This document shows, one piece after another, positions 22,860 to 38,094 of a stretch of 64,000 nt of DNA. A program made the position numbers and the translations under genes. Source of the stretch: Acetobacter garciniae (lineage in GTDB: Bacteria; Pseudomonadota; Alphaproteobacteria; Acetobacterales; Acetobacteraceae); NCBI RefSeq assembly GCF_017377735.1, contig NZ_JAFVMH010000009.1, positions 1 through 64,000 on the forward strand, written 5' to 3'. Every line of letters starts with the position of its first letter. Position 1 is the stretch's first letter. The notes beneath the pieces were generated by a model. It made no database searches. It saw only the letters and a list, made by a program, of their open reading frames with translations, and was not told where the DNA came from.

Positions 22860-24629
22860 CTACAGCCCCAGCCCGCGCGAGCGTCCGATCTGCCAGCCGA
22901 GTCCGCCGTCTTCACTCACCGAAAGCGTCATGTCCCGGTTGCGGTATCGCCCGATCTCGGGCTTCCAGGGCACCAGCGCCATCTCATAGCTGTTCTCCAT
23001 CAGGGCATAGCTGCCGCTGGCCAGATGCACCGGCCCTGACAGCTTGCCGGAAATGCTCTCGAACGGCCCCATAGGCCGCAGGGCAAGATTTTTCCGCGCG
23101 GCCATCTCCTGCCCCACACGCTCGACCTCGCGCGCCTCCAGCGTCGCCAGCAGGTTGCGACGGTAGCGTGTGGCCCCGTCAGGATCACGGATGGCATCGC
23201 CCCGCTCGATATGGTGCGACTGACGCCGGGTCATGGCCTCCCCGACCTCGCGCCCGAAGCCCGCCGCCGCGCGGTCGCCGTCACGACCGGACACCAGCCT
23301 GCGGTCCAACCAGGTCGCGCCGTCCGAACCGATCTGGGCCTCCAGGTCCAGCGTGGACAGCAATCTGACCATAGCCTTCGGGGACCGCGCCGCGTCATAG
23401 GCGACAGCGCGTTGCGCGAAATCCTCGGGGATGTGCCAGTGATCCGCGTCCAGCCGCTCGACGATGGCCGCCCGACGCAGGGCCTCCAGCCGCCGGACAT
23501 GGCCCTGCACCAGTTCCTCGGGGTTGCCTTTCCCCTGCCAGCGGTCAAGCTGCAACCGATCCAGATGCTCCGAAGGTCGGTAAATCCCCTCCCGCGCCAT
23601 CGCGGCGATGGACCGGTCGGACGGACGCTCGCGGACACTGCCCGCACCAATGCTGACGATGGCCCCGTTGCTTATGTCCTCCACCTGCGCGGGATCGAAG
23701 CCGGGAACGTGATGCACACGCCCGTCGATCCCGTCCACGACAAGAGACAGTTTTTCCCCCAGTTCATCGCTGAGATGCCGGTCAATCAGCCGCCCCACAA
23801 CGGGCGTGTCAGGCACCTCGCCATGCAGACGGAAACTCGCCGGATCGCGCTCCTGATCCGGGCCACGTGCCTTCAACGCGCGATGCATCTGCTTCGTGAT
23901 ATCGCCCTGCTCGCCCAAGGCTCGCAGGGTGTCCTCCAGCCTGTCCTCCAGTTCCCAGATGCCGGGTGAGGTCTGTTGCGCCAGCCCCATGCGTTCCAGC
24001 TTCGCCAGACGCGACAGACGCAGGCTTCTATCCACCCAATCGGACGATCCCACCTCAACGCCGGGCCGCATATCGACACGCCCCTCCTGTGTCTGCTCCA
24101 GCAGGGCGCGATCCAGCCGCGTGAAACGGTCCTGGCCGATCTCGGCTTCCAGCTTCCGGCGCTGCTCAATCTCGGTGACGGGGCCAAGTTCCAACGTCAC
24201 CAGTTCGGAGGCGCGTTCGCGAATACCCTGGCCCATATACTGTCCGTTGATGACCAGATTTTCCCCGAGATCATCGCGGCCATTGATGACGACATGGACA
24301 TGCGGATGGGCGGTGTTGAAATGGTTCACGGCCACCCAGTCCAGAGGGGTGCCGAGATCGGCTTCCATCTGCTTCATCAGGTCGCGCGTAAAGCCCGTGA
24401 GGTCCGATAGGCGCTCGGCGTCTTCGGGCGAGACGATCATGCGGAACTGATGTCGGTCGTCTGCCCCGCGTTCGAGAAATGCGCGGCCATCGGCGCGGTC
24501 GATATCCGCGCCATAGAGGACGCCGCGCTCGCCATCGCGGGAGGTTCCATCGCGCTGGATATAGCGCAGATGGGCGGCGGCCCCGCCGCCCTTTCCGGCC
24601 TGCCGCACCACCCGCGCCTTCACGGTCAC
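22860..24629 (-). CDS. rlxS: RlxS-type relaxase with DUF3363 domain, N-terminally truncated
   Basis: The open frame of 589 residues starts at a GTG (24629). Relaxase motifs are present: a possible catalytic Tyr23 in HLRYIQRDG and the metal-binding triad HPHVH (His108, 110, 112). The rest is the long DUF3363-type C-terminal region. Related relaxases have roughly 80 more residues in front; that part is recognisable here but broken (see 24630-24874). The protein would nick oriT and lead the strand in transfer; whether this shortened form works is uncertain. Confidence 0.85.
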   Translation of the reverse strand: MTVKARVVRQAGKGGGAAAHLRYIQRDGTSRDGERGVLYGADIDRADGRAFLERGADDRHQFRMIVSPEDAERLSDLTGFTRDLMKQMEADLGTPLDWVAVNHFNTAHPHVHVVINGRDDLGENLVINGQYMGQGIRERASELVTLELGPVTEIEQRRKLEAEIGQDRFTRLDRALLEQTQEGRVDMRPGVEVGSSDWVDRSLRLSRLAKLERMGLAQQTSPGIWELEDRLEDTLRALGEQGDITKQMHRALKARGPDQERDPASFRLHGEVPDTPVVGRLIDRHLSDELGEKLSLVVDGIDGRVHHVPGFDPAQVEDISNGAIVSIGAGSVRERPSDRSIAAMAREGIYRPSEHLDRLQLDRWQGKGNPEELVQGHVRRLEALRRAAIVERLDADHWHIPEDFAQRAVAYDAARSPKAMVRLLSTLDLEAQIGSDGATWLDRRLVSGRDGDRAAAGFGREVGEAMTRRQSHHIERGDAIRDPDGATRYRRNLLATLEAREVERVGQEMAARKNLALRPMGPFESISGKLSGPVHLASGSYALMENSYEMALVPWKPEIGRYRNRDMTLSVSEDGGLGWQIGRSRGLGL

Positions 24630-25165: not shown

Positions 25166-25843
25166 TCAGCGTGCGCTCTTTTGCGAGAGGGGGACGAACA
25201 GGCTGGCGGGTGATGCGCTGGAAGGCATGGCGTGAACAAAAATCGGCATCACCTGCGCCGCGTCCTGGGCAACGCTTCGGGATGCAAAAGGACCGACGAA
25301 AATTGGACTCCCGGACAGCGTTTCGCGTGGCGTTCGCGCTGTAAAATCCACGCCGGAAATCGTGCCACCGATCGACTCTCCATGTAGCAGCCGGATGACT
25401 TTCGCAACGTATTTTCTCGTCTCGTCGGGCAGCGTTTTTCCTGATGTCAGAAGCTGTTCATACCGTCCGGGACCGGCATTGTAAGCGGCAAGAAAACCAG
25501 CATCGCCGTAGCGGTCATGCAGCCACCGGAGATACGCCGCACCTGCGACAATATTGTCGCGCGGATCGTATGGATCAGCTCCAAGATTCAACGCCGCACG
25601 CAATTCCCGCCACGTCTCGGGCATGATCTGCATGAGGCCCATCGCGCCCCTGGGTGATATCGCAGACGCATCACTCTGGCTCTCCGCACGCATCACCGCC
25701 GTGATCCATGCAGGCGGGATATTCGCCCGCGCGGCGGCCTCGGTAACATAGGTCTCGAATGGTGCAGCGCAAACAGTCTGCACGGGCATTGCAATCCCGC
25801 TGCAAACTGTCAGCACACCAAGCGTGTTTTTAACGTGACGCAT
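25166..25843 (-). CDS. Lytic transglycosylase (SLT domain), conjugation-associated
   Basis: The ATG at 25843 overlaps the end of DUF736 and gives 225 residues. A signal peptide (VKNTLGVLTVCSGIAMPV...CAA) precedes the SLT domain: ITAVMRAESQSDASAISPRGAMGLMQIMPETW with catalytic Glu54, then AAYNAGPGRY. Such enzymes open the peptidoglycan for the type IV secretion channel. It belongs to the operon running from the AlpA-like gene to the relaxase. Confidence 0.9.
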   Translation of the reverse strand: MRHVKNTLGVLTVCSGIAMPVQTVCAAPFETYVTEAAARANIPPAWITAVMRAESQSDASAISPRGAMGLMQIMPETWRELRAALNLGADPYDPRDNIVAGAAYLRWLHDRYGDAGFLAAYNAGPGRYEQLLTSGKTLPDETRKYVAKVIRLLHGESIGGTISGVDFTARTPRETLSGSPIFVGPFASRSVAQDAAQVMPIFVHAMPSSASPASLFVPLSQKSAR

Positions 25844-26168
25844 GACGTGGATCAGGTCGGTTCCAGACCAGCCGGAAACTGTCGGAACCGTCACGCTCGG
25901 GCATCAGCCGGGCACGCAAGGGAGAAGCAAACAGCGGATCGTCGATCAGCACGGCCAGCCACAGGCCGATGCGCTCGTTCTGCCGTACCCAGGCACAGCC
26001 GACCTGCGCCGCATCGTCTTCCAGACCACGCAGGACGCGATAATCGGGCGCATTTTCCGACGTGCGGTTTACGTTCGGAACGATGGAGAGATCGTCGGCC
26101 ATCAGGAAGGTGATGATCTGCCCGAAAAACCCGTTGGCCGTGTGCGTGAAGGTGCCGAGATGGATCAT
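25830..26168 (-). CDS. DUF736 family protein
   Basis: The 112-residue protein starts at an ATG (26168) overlapping the TraF stop by four bases. The beginning IHLGTFTHTANGFFGQIITF and the central VPNVNRTSENAPDYRVLRG are hallmarks of DUF736, a small family found almost only in plasmids and ICEs of Alphaproteobacteria. The function is unknown. Its fixed place between traF and the transglycosylase suggests a role in transfer. Confidence 0.85.
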   Translation of the reverse strand: MIHLGTFTHTANGFFGQIITFLMADDLSIVPNVNRTSENAPDYRVLRGLEDDAAQVGCAWVRQNERIGLWLAVLIDDPLFASPLRARLMPERDGSDSFRLVWNRPDPRHASR

Positions 26169-26704
26169 GACCGATCTCCTTTGGTGTGGGGAGCATGAGA
26201 AGCGGGAAGCCACAGCGGGACCGCGCGCCCGATCACCGATGCAGCAGGAAGCGGGCCGAAATACCGTCCGTCGAGGCTGCGCGGTTCCGCCGGGTTCATG
26301 ACGAAAATCTCGTCCGGTCCCAGCCAGTGACAGCCCTGCCAAACGGGCAGCGGGCGTCCGCGATGGTCACTGGCCAGCGCGTCGCCAGCACGTTCGCCGT
26401 CGATCGTGACGCTGCCTTTTGTCCGGCACACGTTTTGTCCCGGCAAAGCCGCGACAGGCTTCAGGAGCGGGACGCCGAAGGGCAGATACCCGCGCGACGA
26501 CAAGAGCAGCGCCAGCCGGTCGGGCAACCGGATCGCGGCCATATCTCCGACATGGAGCGCGCTGCCGGGACGCACCCGATACAGCCCCACCGGGACGCTG
26601 GCCGTCTCGTTCCAGAGCAGCTTGGGCGCGACATGCACGGCGGCGGACGCACCAACCACCAGCACGGCAAAATATGTGCCGAAGAACCAGGCACGCCGGG
26701 TCAT
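26165..26704 (-). CDS. traF: S26-family signal peptidase TraF
   Basis: The 179-residue protein has an N-terminal membrane helix and the S26 dyad: Ser36 in ETASVPVGLYRV and Lys82 in LLKPVAALPGQNVC. A later GPDEIFVMNP...SLDGRYFGPL block is also typical. TraF processes and cyclises the conjugative pilin in RP4-type systems. Its pilin substrate gene (trbC) is absent from this element. The start at 26704 overlaps the DUF2840 stop (ATGA). Confidence 0.9.
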   Translation of the reverse strand: MTRRAWFFGTYFAVLVVGASAAVHVAPKLLWNETASVPVGLYRVRPGSALHVGDMAAIRLPDRLALLLSSRGYLPFGVPLLKPVAALPGQNVCRTKGSVTIDGERAGDALASDHRGRPLPVWQGCHWLGPDEIFVMNPAEPRSLDGRYFGPLPAASVIGRAVPLWLPASHAPHTKGDRS

Positions 26705-27168
26705 GACAGAAGCCTCCTGCGCGCGAGCCACGCCTCATGGCGCTCGCGCGTATAGGGTGAAACCCGCTGTCCGGCGGCAATCCGCGCGCCTACCTGCCGC
26801 CAGTAATCGGGGGATATGGCGGACGGATCGAGGGCCATCGCCTCGATGGCGTCGATCGCTTCCAGCGCGCACCGGACCTTCGGCCAGCTGGACAGAGCGA
26901 GTAGCGATTCAGCGCCGGGACGGACGAAGGGAATGGTCTGGAACGGCTCTCCCGCGTTCACGGTCCGCACGATGTCGAGGCAGAAGATGACAGTGCCATA
27001 ATCGTTGGCGGTCCAGCGGACGAAGGCGAACACGCTGCCCGGTGCGAAGCGCATCAGCCTTCGACGGCGGTCGAGGATACGATCCTCCACGGGATGGCCG
27101 AAGCGCAGCCATTGCTCGATGCGCTTCTCGATCCAGGTCAGTTCAACCTGGGCCAGCGCGGCGGTCAT
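26701..27168 (-). CDS. DUF2840 domain-containing protein
   Basis: The 155-residue protein shows the DUF2840 pattern (HPVEDRILDRRRRLMRFAPGSVFAFVRWTANDYGTV) and no catalytic motif that I recognise. The gene overlaps traF and the AlpA-like gene by four bases each. This family is known almost only from this rdfS-traF operon of proteobacterial ICEs. Function unknown. Confidence 0.85.
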   Translation of the reverse strand: MTAALAQVELTWIEKRIEQWLRFGHPVEDRILDRRRRLMRFAPGSVFAFVRWTANDYGTVIFCLDIVRTVNAGEPFQTIPFVRPGAESLLALSSWPKVRCALEAIDAIEAMALDPSAISPDYWRQVGARIAAGQRVSPYTRERHEAWLARRRLLS

Positions 27169-27413
27169 GGCGTCTCTCCCGTGCGCCGGGCGGGGATTTC
27201 ACCCTGCGGGCCGCTGCACCGCCGCGCGCCCGCGTTCAGCCACGCGGTCAGGTCGGCGACGGCATAGACGACGCGGCCACCGATCTTGTGATAGATGGGG
27301 CCGGTGCCCATCGAGCGGTGCTTTTCCAGCGTGCGCCCGGACAGGCCCAGAAAATGCGCCGCCTCTGGGGTGCGCAGCAGGCGCGGCGGCATGGACTCAG
27401 GCAGATGAATCAT
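27165..27413 (-). CDS. AlpA/RdfS-like helix-turn-helix protein (candidate excisionase)
   Basis: The 82-residue protein contains a MerR/AlpA-type helix-turn-helix (LLRTPEAAHFLGLSGRTLEKHRSMGTGPIYHKIGGRVVYAVADL). In the Mesorhizobium symbiosis ICE the equivalent gene, rdfS, encodes the recombination directionality factor that promotes excision and is switched on by FseA. Here it also heads the transfer operon, with the DUF6499-DUF2285 pair just upstream. A GAAGGA ribosome site precedes the ATG. An 11-base C run (minus strand) sits 18 bases upstream. Confidence 0.8.
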   Translation of the reverse strand: MIHLPESMPPRLLRTPEAAHFLGLSGRTLEKHRSMGTGPIYHKIGGRVVYAVADLTAWLNAGARRCSGPQGEIPARRTGETP

Positions 27414-27430: not shown

Positions 27431-27441
27431 GGGGGGGGGGG
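27431..27441. repeat. Homopolymer of 11 G (C on the coding strand) in the leader of the AlpA-like gene
   Basis: This is the longest homopolymer noticed in the window. It lies in the 5' leader of the transfer operon, where slippage would alter leader length or promoter spacing. Confidence 0.8.
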
Positions 27442-27685
27442 CGTCCGACAGGGACGGCCCGACACGGGAAGGCTGGCTAGGAAATGGCACTGTCGGCATG
27501 GTCGTTTTTGGGGGAAACAGAAAACGTCCATCACTCATTTGCCGCCGTCTGCCCGCTTAACCACGCGGAAATCACCAGAGATACGATCGAAAAACTGACG
27601 GTAAAATCGAAAGGTTTACATGTCAGACTGGATCACGAGCGGGTTTGCGCGGCGATGGCGGCATGGTCGGGGTACTGACACCCTG

Positions 27686-28294
27686 TCAGGGGCGCGAGCG
27701 GCGTCTGCTCCCGCCCGCCTGCCATGTCAGAAAGCGTCGATAGCCTCCTGCCAGTGTCCGCCGTCCGCGCGCCAGCGTGCGCCGCACCAGCCCGCGCGCG
27801 GCATTGTCGCTCCATTCGTCACGCGACCGCTGGTATCCGAAAAGGGTCTGGCCGATGTCCCATTCGCTGGCTCCCGCTGCCTTCGCATCCATCGCGGCGA
27901 GGGACTGGCGATACAGAAGTTCGGTGCGCGGTGTCATGGCGCGATACGGTCCCGGATCGGCCCGACCGGAAAGGGCGTGGCAGAAGCGCAGGAAAGCCCA
28001 GGCGCGCACGCTGCCCAGATCGTCAGGAACAAGTGCGGCGCTGTACTGCCGCCCGGCGACGGGTTCCTCGTCCAGCCAGAACCGATGCGTAACTCCCCGT
28101 TCGGTCCAGATCAGATAACAGCCTTCGGTGTCGAGGTAGCGTCGTGCGGCGCTAAAAACAGACCACGGCACCGTCCGGTGGCTGGCACCAAGACGCGCTG
28201 GTGCCGGTTCAAGGGGAATAATGAGCGGGAGAAACTGATAGAGCCAGAACAGACTGGCCTTCTCAGTTGAAAGGGCGGGATCGACCGGAACAAA
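27686..28294 (-). CDS. DUF2285 part of an FseA-like activator (copy 1, expressed by +1 frameshift)
   Basis: From the junction at 28294 the frame gives 202 residues: FVPVDPALSTEKASLFWL, then a helix-turn-helix-like DUF2285 C-terminus (ELLYRQSLAAMDAKAAGASEWDIGQTLFG...RRTLAGGYRRFL). No good start codon or ribosome site lies at the junction; upstream codons overlap the DUF6499 gene in another frame. In Mesorhizobium, FseA is made from two such ORFs by programmed +1 frameshifting and activates rdfS. The same arrangement and direction are seen here, just ahead of the AlpA-like gene. Confidence 0.75.
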   Translation of the reverse strand, partial: FVPVDPALSTEKASLFWLYQFLPLIIPLEPAPARLGASHRTVPWSVFSAARRYLDTEGCYLIWTERGVTHRFWLDEEPVAGRQYSAALVPDDLGSVRAWAFLRFCHALSGRADPGPYRAMTPRTELLYRQSLAAMDAKAAGASEWDIGQTLFGYQRSRDEWSDNAARGLVRRTLARGRRTLAGGYRRFLTWQAGGSRRRSRP

Positions 28295-28424
28295 CCAACC
28301 CCCATTTATGCGCGAGCGCACGAAATTCCGGCGTGTCCGGCATAAGTCTTGACCAGAGTGCGTAATCATGCCGGTATTCAGGCATCCGGCGCAGATATTC
28401 CCAGGCGAGTTCTGTTTCCGGCAT
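28263..28424 (-). CDS. DUF6499 part of an FseA-like activator (copy 1)
   Basis: This 53-residue gene (ATG 28424, TGA 28263) reads MPETELAWEYLRRMPEYRHDY...PEFRALAHKWGL, the DUF6499 domain normally fused in front of DUF2285. After WGL the sequence TTG-G-TTT-GTT allows skipping of one base to enter the DUF2285 frame, giving about 245 residues in total. Without the shift only a short peptide is made. Programmed shift versus mutation cannot be settled from sequence, but copy 2 shows the same register change at the same place. Confidence 0.75.
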   Translation of the reverse strand: MPETELAWEYLRRMPEYRHDYALWSRLMPDTPEFRALAHKWGLVCSGRSRPFN

Positions 28425-28582
28425 GAGGGACGCTCCTGCTCGGGCCGTAACGGCACGGAGAACGGGTCCAACATCATGATTTTTCGCGGATTCCGGCTGT
28501 AAAGCGCCATTTTCAGATCATTTGATTACGAAGCCAGATCGACGGGATCACGATAAATAACAAATGGAGGGGCCGCAGGCCC

Positions 28583-32135: not shown

Positions 32136-33887
32136 ATGACCCGTGTCGCGCTCTATGCCCGCTATTCCTCGGACAACCAGCGGGCGGCCTCGATCGAGGA
32201 CCAGTTCCGGCTCTGTGAAGAGCGCGCCACACGCGAGGGCTGGCAGGTGGTGGATTACTATCGCGACGCGGCCATCTCCGGGGCCAGCATGATCCTGCGC
32301 CCCGGCATCCAGACCCTGCTGCGCGACGCCCAGGCCGGGCAGTTCGATGTCGTGCTGGCCGAAGCGCTGGATCGTGTCTCCCGTGATCAGGCAGACGTCG
32401 CCACCCTGTTCAAGCGCCTGCAATTCGCAGGTGTCCAGATCATCACCGTGGCGGAAGCGGAAATCTCCGAACTGCATGTCGGCCTGAAAGGGACGATGAA
32501 CGCCCTGTTCCTCAAGGATCTTGCCCTGAAAACCCATCGCGGCCTGCGCGGGCGGGTCGAGGCGGGCAAATCTGGTGGCGGCCTGTGCTACGGCTATCGC
32601 GTCATCCGGCAATTCGATGCACATGGCGAGCCGATCCGGGGTGATCGCGAGATCGACCCGGTGCAGGCGGAGATCGTCCGCCGCATCTTTCGCGAGTTCG
32701 CAACCGGGCGCAGCCCGCTTTCCATCGCCAGCCGCCTGAATGACGAAGGTATCCCCAGCCCCACGGGCGGCAAGTGGAACAACACCACGCTGCGCGGCAA
32801 CACCCTGCGTGGGACCGGCATCCTCAATAACGAGTTGTATGTTGGACGGCTGGTGTGGAACCGGCTTCGCTACCTGAAAGACCCACAAACTGGTAAGCGC
32901 GTCTCGCGGCTGAACCCGCAATCGGAGTGGATCATCACCGACGTTCCCGAACTGCGGATCATGGACGACGATCTGTGGCAGTCCGTTCGTACCCGGCAGG
33001 CGAAGATCACCGAGAAGGGGGCGGTCATCAGCGCGGGCATCCGCGCTTCGAACAGTCGCCTCAATGGGCAACGTCGCCCGAAGTCCCTGCTGTCGGGGCT
33101 GGTGTTCTGTGGTATGTGCGGTGGTCCCTGCTCCATCCGGGGTGGCTACCGCTTCGCCTGTTCCAACCACATGGATAACCGCTCCTGCACCAACAAGGCC
33201 ACCATCCGCCGCATGGAACTGGAAGAGCGGATGCTGTCCGGTCTGAAAGACCGGCTGATGACGCCGAAAGCGGCGGCGGAAGCCATGCGCTCCTATGTCG
33301 AGGAAACCAACCGCGCCAATCACGAACGCCGCGCCAGCACGGCGGGATGGCAGGCGGAACTGACCAAGCTGCGCAAGGGGCTGAAACAGATGCTCCAGGT
33401 CATCGAGGACGGCGGCTACACACGCGGCATGGTCGAGCGCATGCGCGAGATAGAAGCCCGCGAGGACGAACTGGTCGCCCTGCTCGCTGCCCAGCCTCAG
33501 GACGTGCCGGATATCCATCCCAATGTCGCGGCGATCTTCAAACAGAAGGTCGAACGCCTGACCGAGACGCTGAACCATCCCGAGGACCGGCAGGAAGCGT
33601 CCGAGGCCATCCGCGCGCTGATCGAGAAAATCATTGTCACACCGGGCAAGGTTCGGGGCGAGATACACGCCACTCTGCATGGCGAGCTTGGCACGCTGCT
33701 CGACTTTGCGGCTTCTCGTGGCAACGGAAAACTGGCTCAAAAGAAAAACACTCCCGAAGCCGAGGCTTCGGGAGTGTCGGTATCGGGTATTGCGGGGGCC
33801 TGCGACCGCCGCCGTCATAAAGCGGATTTCCCTCTGGTTTCCGTTGGCATGGGCGAGATCGAGGATACCCATCAACTCGCCGCGTAG
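32136..33887 (+). CDS. Large serine recombinase
   Basis: A GGAG precedes the ATG. The 583-residue frame has the resolvase catalytic domain (MTRVALYARYSSDNQ, with the nucleophile Ser in ARYSSDNQ), the E-helix and the 'recombinase' domain, a zinc-ribbon-type segment (CGMCGG...CSNHMDNRSCTNK) and a coiled-coil C-terminus. The last 35 or so residues, after the hairpin at 33748, are read antisense to the convergent recombinase, so the native end is probably near 33745. It would integrate, excise or invert an element. Confidence 0.9.
   Translation: MTRVALYARYSSDNQRAASIEDQFRLCEERATREGWQVVDYYRDAAISGASMILRPGIQTLLRDAQAGQFDVVLAEALDRVSRDQADVATLFKRLQFAGVQIITVAEAEISELHVGLKGTMNALFLKDLALKTHRGLRGRVEAGKSGGGLCYGYRVIRQFDAHGEPIRGDREIDPVQAEIVRRIFREFATGRSPLSIASRLNDEGIPSPTGGKWNNTTLRGNTLRGTGILNNELYVGRLVWNRLRYLKDPQTGKRVSRLNPQSEWIITDVPELRIMDDDLWQSVRTRQAKITEKGAVISAGIRASNSRLNGQRRPKSLLSGLVFCGMCGGPCSIRGGYRFACSNHMDNRSCTNKATIRRMELEERMLSGLKDRLMTPKAAAEAMRSYVEETNRANHERRASTAGWQAELTKLRKGLKQMLQVIEDGGYTRGMVERMREIEAREDELVALLAAQPQDVPDIHPNVAAIFKQKVERLTETLNHPEDRQEASEAIRALIEKIIVTPGKVRGEIHATLHGELGTLLDFAASRGNGKLAQKKNTPEAEASGVSVSGIAGACDRRRHKADFPLVSVGMGEIEDTHQLAA
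33748..33777 (-). terminator. Perfect 14-bp hairpin terminator between convergent recombinases
   Basis: ACACTCCCGAAGCC and its exact complement flank a GA loop. On the minus strand TTTTTCTTTT follows, so it suits the leftward recombinase. The same hairpin-then-GTTGCGGGGGC layout occurs at 1294, 16330 and 42678. Confidence 0.8.
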
Positions 33888-35427
33888 GGAGATATGAACC
33901 TCGCCCCGCTTGTCGCCGGGGTTGAGCACGATCCCACCAATCAGCGAGCGGATGGCCTCCGCCGCCTCCCTGCCCCCGTCCGGATCGTCCAGCGCCTCGG
34001 TGAACCGCTCCACGTTGCGCCGGTAGTGCGTGGCAATGTTGGGATGCACGTCGGGAATATCCGCCGGGGCCTGCGCCAGACGCTCCATGATCTCCGCCTT
34101 CTGGCGTTCCAGATCATCCATGCGGGCCTTCATGGAGGGCTGATACATCCCGTCCTCGATGGCCGTAATGATAGCCCGTATTGACCGGTCGATCTTGTCC
34201 AGCACCTTGCGGTCCGCAATCGCCTGGCCCCGCCGCTCATGGTTGAGGCGGTTCACTTCCTCTGCAAACGCCCGCACCGCCTCGGCCACGCTATCGGACG
34301 ACACCAGCCGGTCTTTCAGCCCTACCAGCACCCGCCTCGATCCGCTGGCGCGGGATGGTACGGTTATTGGCGCAGGTGCCCCGGCGGTGGTGGTTCAGGC
34401 AGCCAAACCGGCTGTTGACAATCATGCCCACCTTGCCACCACAGCAGCCACAGGTGAGCAGCCCGGAAAGAAGGGAGACAGGCCGGTTCGCCAGATGCAG
34501 CTGCCTTGCGCGGCCTTCCAGCGTGTTCGTCGGGCATGGGCCGACCTTCGCCGCGATGGCCGCCTGACGGGTTCTGACGGCCTGCCACAAACCATCATCC
34601 ACGATTTTGAGATGTGGGACTTCGGTCCTGATCCACTGGCTTTCCGGGTTGGGACGCGAGACCCGCTTACCAGTGCTGGGGTCTTTGATGAAGCGTTGGC
34701 GGTTCCACACCAGCACGCCCGCATAGAGTTCGTTATGGAGGATACCCGTCCCCCGCGAGACATGCCCCCGGATGGAGGTATCGCCCCAGGCGCGACCCAG
34801 CGGGCCGGGCACCCCCTCCTTGTTCAATTCCACCGCAATGGAACGCGGGCTTTGTCCGGCGGCGAAAGCGCGAAAAATACGGCGAATGGTGTCAGCTTCC
34901 TCGGGGATGATCTCACGATCCCCCCGGATCGGCTCGCCATTGGCGTCCAGCTTTTTGACCACGCGATAGCCGTAGCAGAGGCCACCGCCCGCCTTGCCCT
35001 TCTCCACCCGGCCCCGAAGCCCGCGATGGGTTTTCATTGCGAGGTCTTTGAGGAACAGCGCGTTCATCGTGCCTTTCAGGCCGACATGCAGTTCCGAGAT
35101 TTCCCCCTCGGCCAGCGTGACGATGGAGACACCTGCAAAACGCAGATGTTTGAACAGGGTCGCTACATCGGCCTGATCGCGCGAAATGCGGTCCAGCGCC
35201 TCAGCCAATACCACATCGAACTTCCCGGTCTGCGCATCCCGCAGCAGCGCCTGGATGCCGGGCCGCAGGATCGTGCTTGCCCCTGAAATGGCGGCGTCCT
35301 GATAGGTCTCCCCAACCCTCCATCGTTCCCGCGCTGCGTGCTCACGACAGAGGCGAAACTGGTCCTCGATCGAGCTTTCGCTCTGGTTGTCCGATGAATA
35401 GCGGGCATAGAGCGCAACACGGGTCAT
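33790..35427 (-). pseudogene. Second large serine recombinase, frameshifted
   Basis: The N-terminal frame starts at 35427 (MTRVALYARYSSDNQ, catalytic Ser present) and ends at 34291 shortly after the zinc-ribbon (CGCCGG...CLNHHRRGTC). The family continues in another frame (VLVGLKDRLVSSDSVAEAVR...GEVHISLRGELMG) down to about 33790. One base appears to be missing near 34331-34336 (IEAGAG in place of IEARVL). The C-terminal tail is the same as the remnant at 1326. It is convergent with the intact recombinase at 32136 and about equally old in domain content. Confidence 0.8.
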
Positions 35428-35428
35428 G

Positions 35429-35656
35429 TCAGCTTTCTCCTTCCGGCCTGTCCGTCCCGTCCGGGCCATCGCCGGGAGGGGGATGATTGTCGTTGGCGGC
35501 GACATGCGCCGCGACATACTCCCGCGCCATGCGGCGACCGATCAGCCGGGCGATGCTGAACGCCACCCGGTCGAGTTCCTGCCGGGCGTCGATCGGCCTG
35601 TTATCGTTGGCCGGGACACCGGGTGCGCGGCCTGGCGCGTCGTTCCTGTCTCCCAT
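35429..35656 (-). CDS. Small protein preceding a serine recombinase
   Basis: The 75-residue protein (ATG 35656) ends one base before the recombinase start, so the two are co-translated. It contains the IARLIGRRMAREY motif shared with the small protein at 29629 and a proline/aspartate-rich tail. The tight coupling suggests a recombinase accessory or directionality role, but no known fold was recognised. Confidence 0.6.
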   Translation of the reverse strand: MGDRNDAPGRAPGVPANDNRPIDARQELDRVAFSIARLIGRRMAREYVAAHVAANDNHPPPGDGPDGTDRPEGES

Positions 35657-37313: not shown

Positions 37314-37895
37314 TCATCCTTCCGTACGGAGAGCAACATAACCCCCTTCGACCAGACGCAGCCCTTCCGCCGTCCAGTCTCTGGCGGACCGTCGCCAGCC
37401 ATGATCGATCCATTCATGATTGGAAAGTGTCAGCGCCCGTGGGTTGATCAAACGGGCCGCAATCTGGCGCTTACCAAAGCCCGCGCGGTCCATATCGAAC
37501 GCATGCAGACAGCGGATCAGATGCAGGGACCGGAACGGCGTAATGACCGGCGGAATACGGTGAGGAATACTGAACCCGAGATATCGGAACATGAAGCGTC
37601 CCGCCTCGTAATAACGGCTCCTGAACAGGGGATCGAGCGGGATCACCACCGCAGGCCGTTTCATGACGTCAGGGCTATCCATCAGGAAGGAGAACGTCCC
37701 GAAGGGTCCAGCCACGGTCACGCCGCGTCCGGCGTCATCTTCATGATCCAGCAGGACACGACCCAGAGCTTCGAAATTCAGCGACAGGAAATCGGAAAAG
37801 CCACGTGGTGCTTCTGTCAGACTGATGATGCGCGTTGTGTCTTCCCTGCGCCAGATCACAGGCTTGCGGGTGATGGGAATGTCAGGATCGTGGAC
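37314..37895 (-). CDS. DUF2285 part of an FseA-like activator (copy 2, expressed by +1 frameshift)
   Basis: From the junction the frame gives 193 residues: VHDPDIPITRKPVIWRRED, a beta-rich middle, and a DUF2285 helix-turn-helix C-terminus (LHLIRCLHAFDMDRAGFGKRQIAARLI...GWRRSARDWTAEGLRLVEGGYVAL). It is entered from the DUF6499 frame by skipping one base in a T5 tract (37896-37900, plus-strand A5). The protein is diverged from copy 1 but has the same length and order. No AlpA-like target gene follows. Confidence 0.72.
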   Translation of the reverse strand, partial: VHDPDIPITRKPVIWRREDTTRIISLTEAPRGFSDFLSLNFEALGRVLLDHEDDAGRGVTVAGPFGTFSFLMDSPDVMKRPAVVIPLDPLFRSRYYEAGRFMFRYLGFSIPHRIPPVITPFRSLHLIRCLHAFDMDRAGFGKRQIAARLINPRALTLSNHEWIDHGWRRSARDWTAEGLRLVEGGYVALRTEG

Positions 37896-38094
37896 AAAAA
37901 CGCAACCCCCATCGGTCACGGAAAGCCGCCCACAGGAGAGAGGGATTGTCACTCGCCCCTGCTCGTAGGCCGGTATCGCGATAGTCGCTGACATAGCGGG
38001 ACCAGCGGCGCATGAAGGCCCCGGCAAGGGCGGAGGCTGACAGAGTCCTGAGGATGGCCAGATCGGCCTCGGAATGCCAGATGTCCAGTGGCAT
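37882..38094 (-). CDS. DUF6499 part of an FseA-like activator (copy 2)
   Basis: The 70-residue frame (ATG 38094) reads MPLDIWHSEADLAILRTLSA...LLWAAFRDRWGLRF and stops soon after. Reading CGT-TTT, skipping T, then GTC-CAC restores a 259-residue DUF6499-DUF2285 fusion. The DNA around both junctions shares TGGGGGTTG. It starts about 100 bases after the receptor-downstream repeat at 38193-38263. Confidence 0.72.
   Translation of the reverse strand: MPLDIWHSEADLAILRTLSASALAGAFMRRWSRYVSDYRDTGLRAGASDNPSLLWAAFRDRWGLRFCPRS

Follow-up and report, generated by a model that had tools for sequence, protein, structure and literature searches.

The frameshifting of FseA is one brake on the transfer of many proteobacterial mobile elements. 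In M. loti the slip codon is reportedly UUU, and the slippage from UUU to UUC is said to have been described by Ramsay et al. in PNAS in 2015. FseA is made by a low-frequency programmed +1 frameshift that ~61% of 4709 FseA homologues need, and the WGL tripeptide adjoining the shift site is coded by UGGGGG, which resembles a ribosome binding site, all as given in PMC10359603, where RovC, an activator of type VI secretion genes, is treated as a distant relative. A gene order in which rdfS heads an operon with traF, upstream of a relaxase gene, is described for ICEMlSym and related elements (PMC11963761). Programmed +1 frameshifting of FseA-type activators is already published, for thousands of homologues (PMC10359603), as is their fold, and what I wish to discuss here is a locus from Acetobacter garciniae, called copy 1, whose altered shift site is a rare variant without the usual slip codon. 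A search of the open-access literature returned no earlier description of this UGU variant, and its novelty is not certain.

Two reading frames upstream of a transfer operon

Copy 1 lies on the minus strand of the window, by which I mean the whole stretch of 64,000 nucleotides analysed (positions 1 to 64,000 of contig NZ_JAFVMH010000009.1), and consists of two overlapping frames. The zero frame (28263..28424; ATG at 28424, stop at 28263, 53 codons) matches DUF6499, the N-terminal half of FseA (PF20109, 42.4 bits against a cut-off of 23.8), and carries the AWEFLRR-like motif of the FseA family as AWEYLRR. Downstream of it, as in that family, the +1 frame (27686..28294) matches DUF2285/RovC, the C-terminal DNA-binding half (PF10074, 65.1 bits against 26.4, scanned as 27686-28510), and the register changes by +1 directly after TGG GGG TTG (W-G-L). 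These matches and the split at WGL bear out the first-pass annotation, which had described such an overlap and called the pair an FseA-like activator, and from its sequence copy 1 is predicted to be an FseA-type transfer activator. That annotation had also stated that the DUF2285 part has no start of its own, which is not strictly so, since the +1 frame can be read without a stop from an ATG at 28510, ahead of the DUF6499 start, although DUF2285 is the only domain found in this longer frame (28510-27686).

The genes that follow on the same strand have the expected order, as had been claimed for the pair on the basis of its position directly upstream of an RdfS-like gene heading a traF-relaxase operon. 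First comes a small HTH_17 gene (27165..27413, PF12728, 34.9 bits), rdfS-like by match and by position, followed by a DUF2840 gene (26701..27168, PF11000, 227.7 bits), a traF-like S26 peptidase (26165..26731, PF10502, 86.5 bits), a DUF736 gene (25830..26342, PF05284, 86.5 bits), a lytic transglycosylase (25166..25894, PF01464, 89.2 bits) and a DUF3363 relaxase (22860..24629, PF11843, 400 bits), whose MobA/VirD2-like nuclease match (PF03432) falls just under the cut-off (24.0 versus 24.6 bits). A similar series (HTH_17 gene, DUF2840, S26 peptidase, DUF736 and DUF3363 relaxase) stands behind L015, another copy in this genome, and the same HTH gene, recognized by motif, lies downstream of the corresponding A. 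estunensis locus.

Between copy 1 and the rdfS-like gene there is an inverted repeat (27498..27531, minus strand), ATGGACGTTTT-N12-AAAACGACCAT, with 11-nt arms, one mismatch and 12 nt between them; it is the single repeat found in the 277 bases before rdfS and stands 84 nt 5' of the rdfS-like ATG. L075, the nearest relative of copy 1 in the tree discussed below, has a matching repeat with a different spacer 82 nt before its own rdfS-like ATG. When trimmed, the repeat fits two hexamers 16 bp apart, the form published for the FseA box (PMC10359603), which makes it a candidate box. Support for it comes mainly from the repeat common to copy 1 and L075, because the arms in other loci, aligned by eye, differ in their letters and an equally good repeat arose in 2% of 200 shuffled versions of the copy 1 region; a scan for dyad words in 30 upstream regions scored 6, the largest value in 20 shuffles being 5. 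A run of 11 C on the minus strand (27431-27441), located 17 nt 5' of the rdfS-like ATG, is the sole homopolymer of at least 10 in the window, the longest C run at the corresponding place of L075 being 3, and such a tract could be hypermutable and vary the expression of the transfer operon.

A split shared across the genome and the family

All seven DUF6499 matches in the genome are split by +1 at the same protein position, and DUF2285 is matched nine times, eight of these over the family cut-off. The split is not a lone indel, because the seven copies are split alike, and L015-type sites recur in four named species, so that a lone indel or a sequencing error is out as an explanation; a lone indel among homologues that are otherwise in frame, the outcome that would have counted against programming, was not seen here or among 216 homologous hits (209 with +1). 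The second copy in the window (L012, 38079-37329) had been put forward as showing the same register change at the same place, and this stands for the register and the protein position and fails for the nucleotides, since copy 2 has the usual CGT TTT TGT and copy 1 has GTT TGT TCC and lacks an in-frame UUU there. L015, for its part, has a TCC TGT site.

Copy 2 (37329-38079) has a near twin at C23:44239-44989, in which WGL has become WRL (TGG AGG), and none of the genome's five DUF2840 matches adjoins copy 2 or this twin. Two serine recombinases in opposite orientation (32136-33887 and 34291-35517) lie between the transfer operon and copy 2, and no tyrosine recombinase was found among the 28 window proteins scanned. 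Elsewhere in the genome, the gene for a short protein without DUF6499 (L008, C43:72568-72801; DUF2285 match 42.2 bits) directly precedes that of a coupling protein (T4SS-DNA_transf, 259.8 bits). This position would suit a QseM-type antiactivator, a label that I infer, and a further DUF2285 match without DUF6499, below the family cut-off (C23:5208-5429), is another candidate QseM-like antiactivator.

The survey drew DUF6499 loci from the family and class of the host and from protein searches, with loci from a pattern scan added, and classified them with HMMs built here and trained on +1 loci. The DUF6499 hits number 216, many being repeats of a locus already counted, and comprise 209 with the +1 arrangement, three in frame, one at +2, one in the same frame with a stop and two without DUF2285; this share cannot be set beside the published 61%, because the HMMs were +1-trained and only 13 of 154 contexts came from the class-wide search. 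Those 154 distinct +1 sites are what is left once identical contexts are removed and L086 and L095, in which W-G-L could not be placed, are dropped. The fifth codon counted from W is UUU followed by C or U in 145 of them (W-G-L-x-F) and UGU in eight, copy 1 included, and in the remaining one (L088) UUU comes one codon later. Three of the UGU loci (L129, L140 and L143) were supplied solely by a scan whose pattern demanded TGGGGG and TGT; if they are left out, the counts are 145 UUU, five UGU and one later UUU among 151.

In the 50 codons before the site Phe is coded 204 times by TTC and 137 times by TTT, and since UUU nevertheless fills the slip position in 145 of 154 sites, this codon is under constraint at the nucleotide level; 145 TTT out of 145 would have a chance probability of 4e-58 on the assumption, which does not hold, that rows are independent. 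The codon before UUU is CGA in 94 of the 145 canonical sites, while CGA accounts for 55 of 9484 codons in the window, and a CGA there may help to stall the ribosome. UGGGGG codes for WG in 118 of the 145 UUU sites and in all eight UGU sites (in three of the eight by choice of pattern), and the codon before UGU is GUU or UCC, and hence ends in two pyrimidines, in 8/8, compared with 6/145 for the UUU sites, a difference inflated by shared ancestry. The UGU contexts read GTT TGT T in copy 1, GTT TGT C in L161, and TCC TGT T or TCC TGT A in a six-context lineage that includes L015; L161 and L206 have no U after UGU, and the +1 codon there is GUC or GUA. Alignment of homologues had been proposed as the check on programming: it upholds a +1 split and a WGL position conserved across the family, and it also places copy 1 among the eight sites in which the conserved slip codon has been replaced, so that the argument from conservation carries over to the split and not to the shift site of copy 1.

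Five of the surveyed loci (L043, L062, L069, L070 and L087) have a +1-frame TGA directly after GGG, two codons before the slip codon, and the shift in these must occur at codon 3 (Leu) or later, because TGA stops the +1 frame before that. The same stops leave no usable upstream start for a freestanding DUF2285 protein, though a downstream one is possible, which bears on whether the two frames are simply two separate proteins, as put forward for the Azorhizobium genes rihF1a and rihF1b, for which separate start and stop codons are stated (PMC9601964). The +1 frame of copy 1 is indeed open back to its ATG at 28510; the register and position of the overlap are, however, fixed across the 154 contexts, and substitutions predicted to break the contact between the two domains are reported to abolish activation (PMC10359603), so I regard two separate proteins as highly improbable.

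The five stops also exclude, in those loci, a slip on GGG by which tRNA-Gly would move to GGU, copy 1 then yielding W-G-W-F-V-P and the L015 lineage W-G-Y-P-V-P. It can be reasoned that GGG-U permits re-pairing at positions 1 and 2, and GGG is present in 8/8 UGU sites, though 3/8 were found by a pattern requiring it. Such a slip would, on the other hand, replace the conserved Leu of WGL, for which all six L015-lineage contexts retain the zero-frame codon TTA; the slip on GGG can be given little credence.

Recurrence of the UGU site

A first pattern was scanned for in 84,980 species, each represented by one genome, with real and chance matches told apart by eye, and 18 stretches were returned, of which four are real and gave the L015-type loci in the four named species, and 14 show no DUF6499 by eye and were taken as chance. 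A somewhat different pattern, which allowed only C or T directly before UGU, gave seven matches in 397 genomes of the family, six of them real (two in the A. garciniae genome itself), and three matches beyond that genome in 347 genomes of the class, all taken as chance; it added no new real locus. The pattern hits L235 and L240-L242 likewise show no DUF6499 by eye and were taken as chance. TTA TCC TGT is common to A. conturbans, A. estunensis, K. intermedius and K. saccharivorans.

In a quick tree of 103 proteins, from which the residues of the site were excluded and in which long branches are flagged near L075 and L161, the UGU rows fall in three places, namely copy 1, L161 and the six-context L015 lineage, and well-supported branches force three changes at the site. 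A single clade of all eight UGU rows is rejected (p-AU 0.00022), as is a clade of the seven without copy 1 (p-AU 0.00041), with the caveat that both groupings were chosen on the trait and the second after the tree had been seen. On the simple reading of the tree, the UGU variant appears to have been gained three times. The usual UUU is present in L075, the row nearest to copy 1, and in L205, which is joined to the L015 lineage. L205 and L081, the canonical rows nearest to two of the UGU lineages (the L161-L081 fork having a support of 88 and no star), carry UCC before UUU, and a stepwise path to the UGU sites is therefore suggested, in which those sites that already had a codon ending in two pyrimidines may be the ones able to lose UUU.

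Selection, and possible decay of copy 1

Selection was gauged from NG86 values of dN and dS. Within the L015 lineage dN is below dS in both frames for all pairs tested (with L002-L140 at 0.15/1.68 over the N part and 0.22/1.16 over the C part), and in four more distant pairs the 30-nt site is 90 to 97% identical against a gene average of 62 to 72%, with 4 to 12 of 769 windows of the gene as conserved as the site; for L002-L206 the values are 93% against 63%, with 9/769 windows as high. Between copy 1 and L075, too, both frames show purifying selection (dN/dS 0.136/0.51 in the N half and 0.41/1.13 in the C half), a result that does not date the UGU change. The DUF6499 halves of these two genes are 78% identical (dS 0.51) and the DUF2285 halves 53% (dS 1.13), an unevenness that may point to recombination between FseA genes.

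The main rival to a working copy 1 is that the copy is decaying: the loss of UUU would have ended frameshifting and with it FseA, in which case the element is inert or owes its transfer to another of the six copies. UUU is, after all, otherwise kept in 145 of 154 sites, and the two serine recombinase genes between copy 1 and copy 2 may mean that the element is rearranged. The copy 1/L075 site is 73% identical against a gene mean of 65%, with 255 of 721 windows as high, a low value expected equally from replacement of the site and from decay. Copy 1 is moreover a single sequence with no close relatives confirmed in the genome and viral contigs searched, its nearest relative being 55% identical, and a plasmid search for copy 1 and the L015 type returned only one record that matches part of the DUF2840 gene at 77%, together with DUF2285 proteins ~30 to 36% identical in 8 and 5 records. 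L161 is also a single sequence, and long-term maintenance is seen in the L015 lineage only. Set against decay are the two open frames of copy 1 with dN below dS relative to L075 (again leaving the UGU change undated), the intact inverted repeat, rdfS and operon, and the fact that the same change occurs in two other lineages, one of which conserves it across species, and on balance I find decay unlikely.

A proposed shift one codon upstream of the usual site

I lean instead, if only slightly, towards copy 1 as a working FseA-type activator that is made by a +1 shift moved one codon upstream of the usual site. The shift region (28304-28278, minus strand) reads TGG GGG TTG GTT TGT TCC GGT CGA TCC and, by comparison with other sites, forms a variant cassette in which the canonical slip site (zero-frame UUU then C or U, fifth codon from W) is absent and UGU-U stands in its stead. 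FseA would be made from copy 1 only when a ribosome passes by +1 from the DUF6499 into the DUF2285 frame, and it would do so without the usual tRNA-Phe slip from UUU to UUC. The SD-like TGGGGG (28304-28299), which codes for WG, would hold the ribosome across the three nucleotides of the spacer codon TTG (28298-28296), a distance like that of prfB, with GTT (28295-28293) as the proposed P-site codon; a slowly decoded TGT (28292-28290) would occupy the A site, and the overlapping +1 codon GTT (28291-28289) would be accepted there in its place, P-site re-pairing being weak or absent. The resulting protein would have the sequence W-G-L-V-V-P-V-D-P, with Val in place of the usual Phe, and it would bind the inverted repeat at 27498-27531 and switch on rdfS, traF and the relaxase. 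In the L015 lineage the corresponding cassette would be UGGGGG, a spacer codon, UCC in the P site and UGU in the A site. By reasoning on base pairs, a move from GUU to UUU, or from UCC to CCU, restores pairing at positions 2 and 3 but not at position 1, which is weaker than in prfB. UGU is moderately infrequent, and not strikingly rare, in the window (33 TGT versus 42 TGC).

Other routes into the +1 frame were considered and set aside. A slip on UGU itself is rejected by reasoning only, tRNA-Cys being unable to pair with GUU at two of three positions, and a slip at an upstream in-frame UUU-C (GAA TTT CGT) would replace the conserved AHKWG stretch; a UUU-Y occurs within 20 codons before W in 12 of 154 loci. 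A stem-loop stimulator was also rejected, the 141 nt folded around the site having shown nothing unusual (z -0.23).

It is possible, though I hold it as the more tentative proposal, that the UGU sites together make up a second site type, in which a two-pyrimidine codon and UGU behind an SD-like element have replaced the usual site at least three times independently, with Val-tRNA entering on the +1 codon without proper P-site re-pairing. Searches relying on UUU-C would miss UGU-type FseA genes or call them broken. Natural pairs that differ at the shift site and are alike in protein family and operon (L205 versus the L015 lineage, L075 versus copy 1) make the need for P-site re-pairing in bacterial +1 shifting directly testable.

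Comparison with known systems

RovC of Yersinia (PDB 6xz5), after which the Pfam family is named, shares the DUF2285/RovC DNA-binding domain with copy 1 and gives only a marginal sequence match to it (E 0.31). FseA of ICEMlSym R7A (msi172-msi171), like copy 1, has its DUF6499 and DUF2285 halves in two frames and is reported to shift by +1 next to a WGL coded by UGGGGG (PMC10359603), and its activation of rdfS-traF-relaxase through an inverted-repeat box (PMC10359603, PMC11963761) is like the role predicted for copy 1; where it differs is the slip site itself, copy 1 having GUU UGU instead of UUU-C.

In the layout of its cassette copy 1 resembles prfB, with an SD-like G run, one spacer codon, a shift codon and then a triplet starting in UG (AGGGGG UAU CUU UGA in prfB as given in PMC13245932, UGGGGG UUG GUU UGU in copy 1), and if GUU is the shift codon, the SD-like element stands one codon before it at 28304-28290, the kind of short SD distance described as promoting +1 shifting (PMC12661321). 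Unlike prfB, copy 1 presents the sense triplet UGU and not the stop UGA in the A site, its GUU to UUU re-pairing is mismatched at position 1 and thus weaker, and it has no link to a release factor. The proposed absence of P-site re-pairing is instead a feature of Ty3 and yeast antizyme (PMC12661321), and the Ty3 site GCG AGU U has the very +1 codon, GUU, that is proposed for copy 1 (PMC12661321), although these are sites of eukaryotic ribosomes, with no SD-like element and with other P-site codons. If the reading of a second site type is true, bacteria would have in the UGU sites a natural equivalent of the Ty3 mechanism, with spacing like that of prfB.
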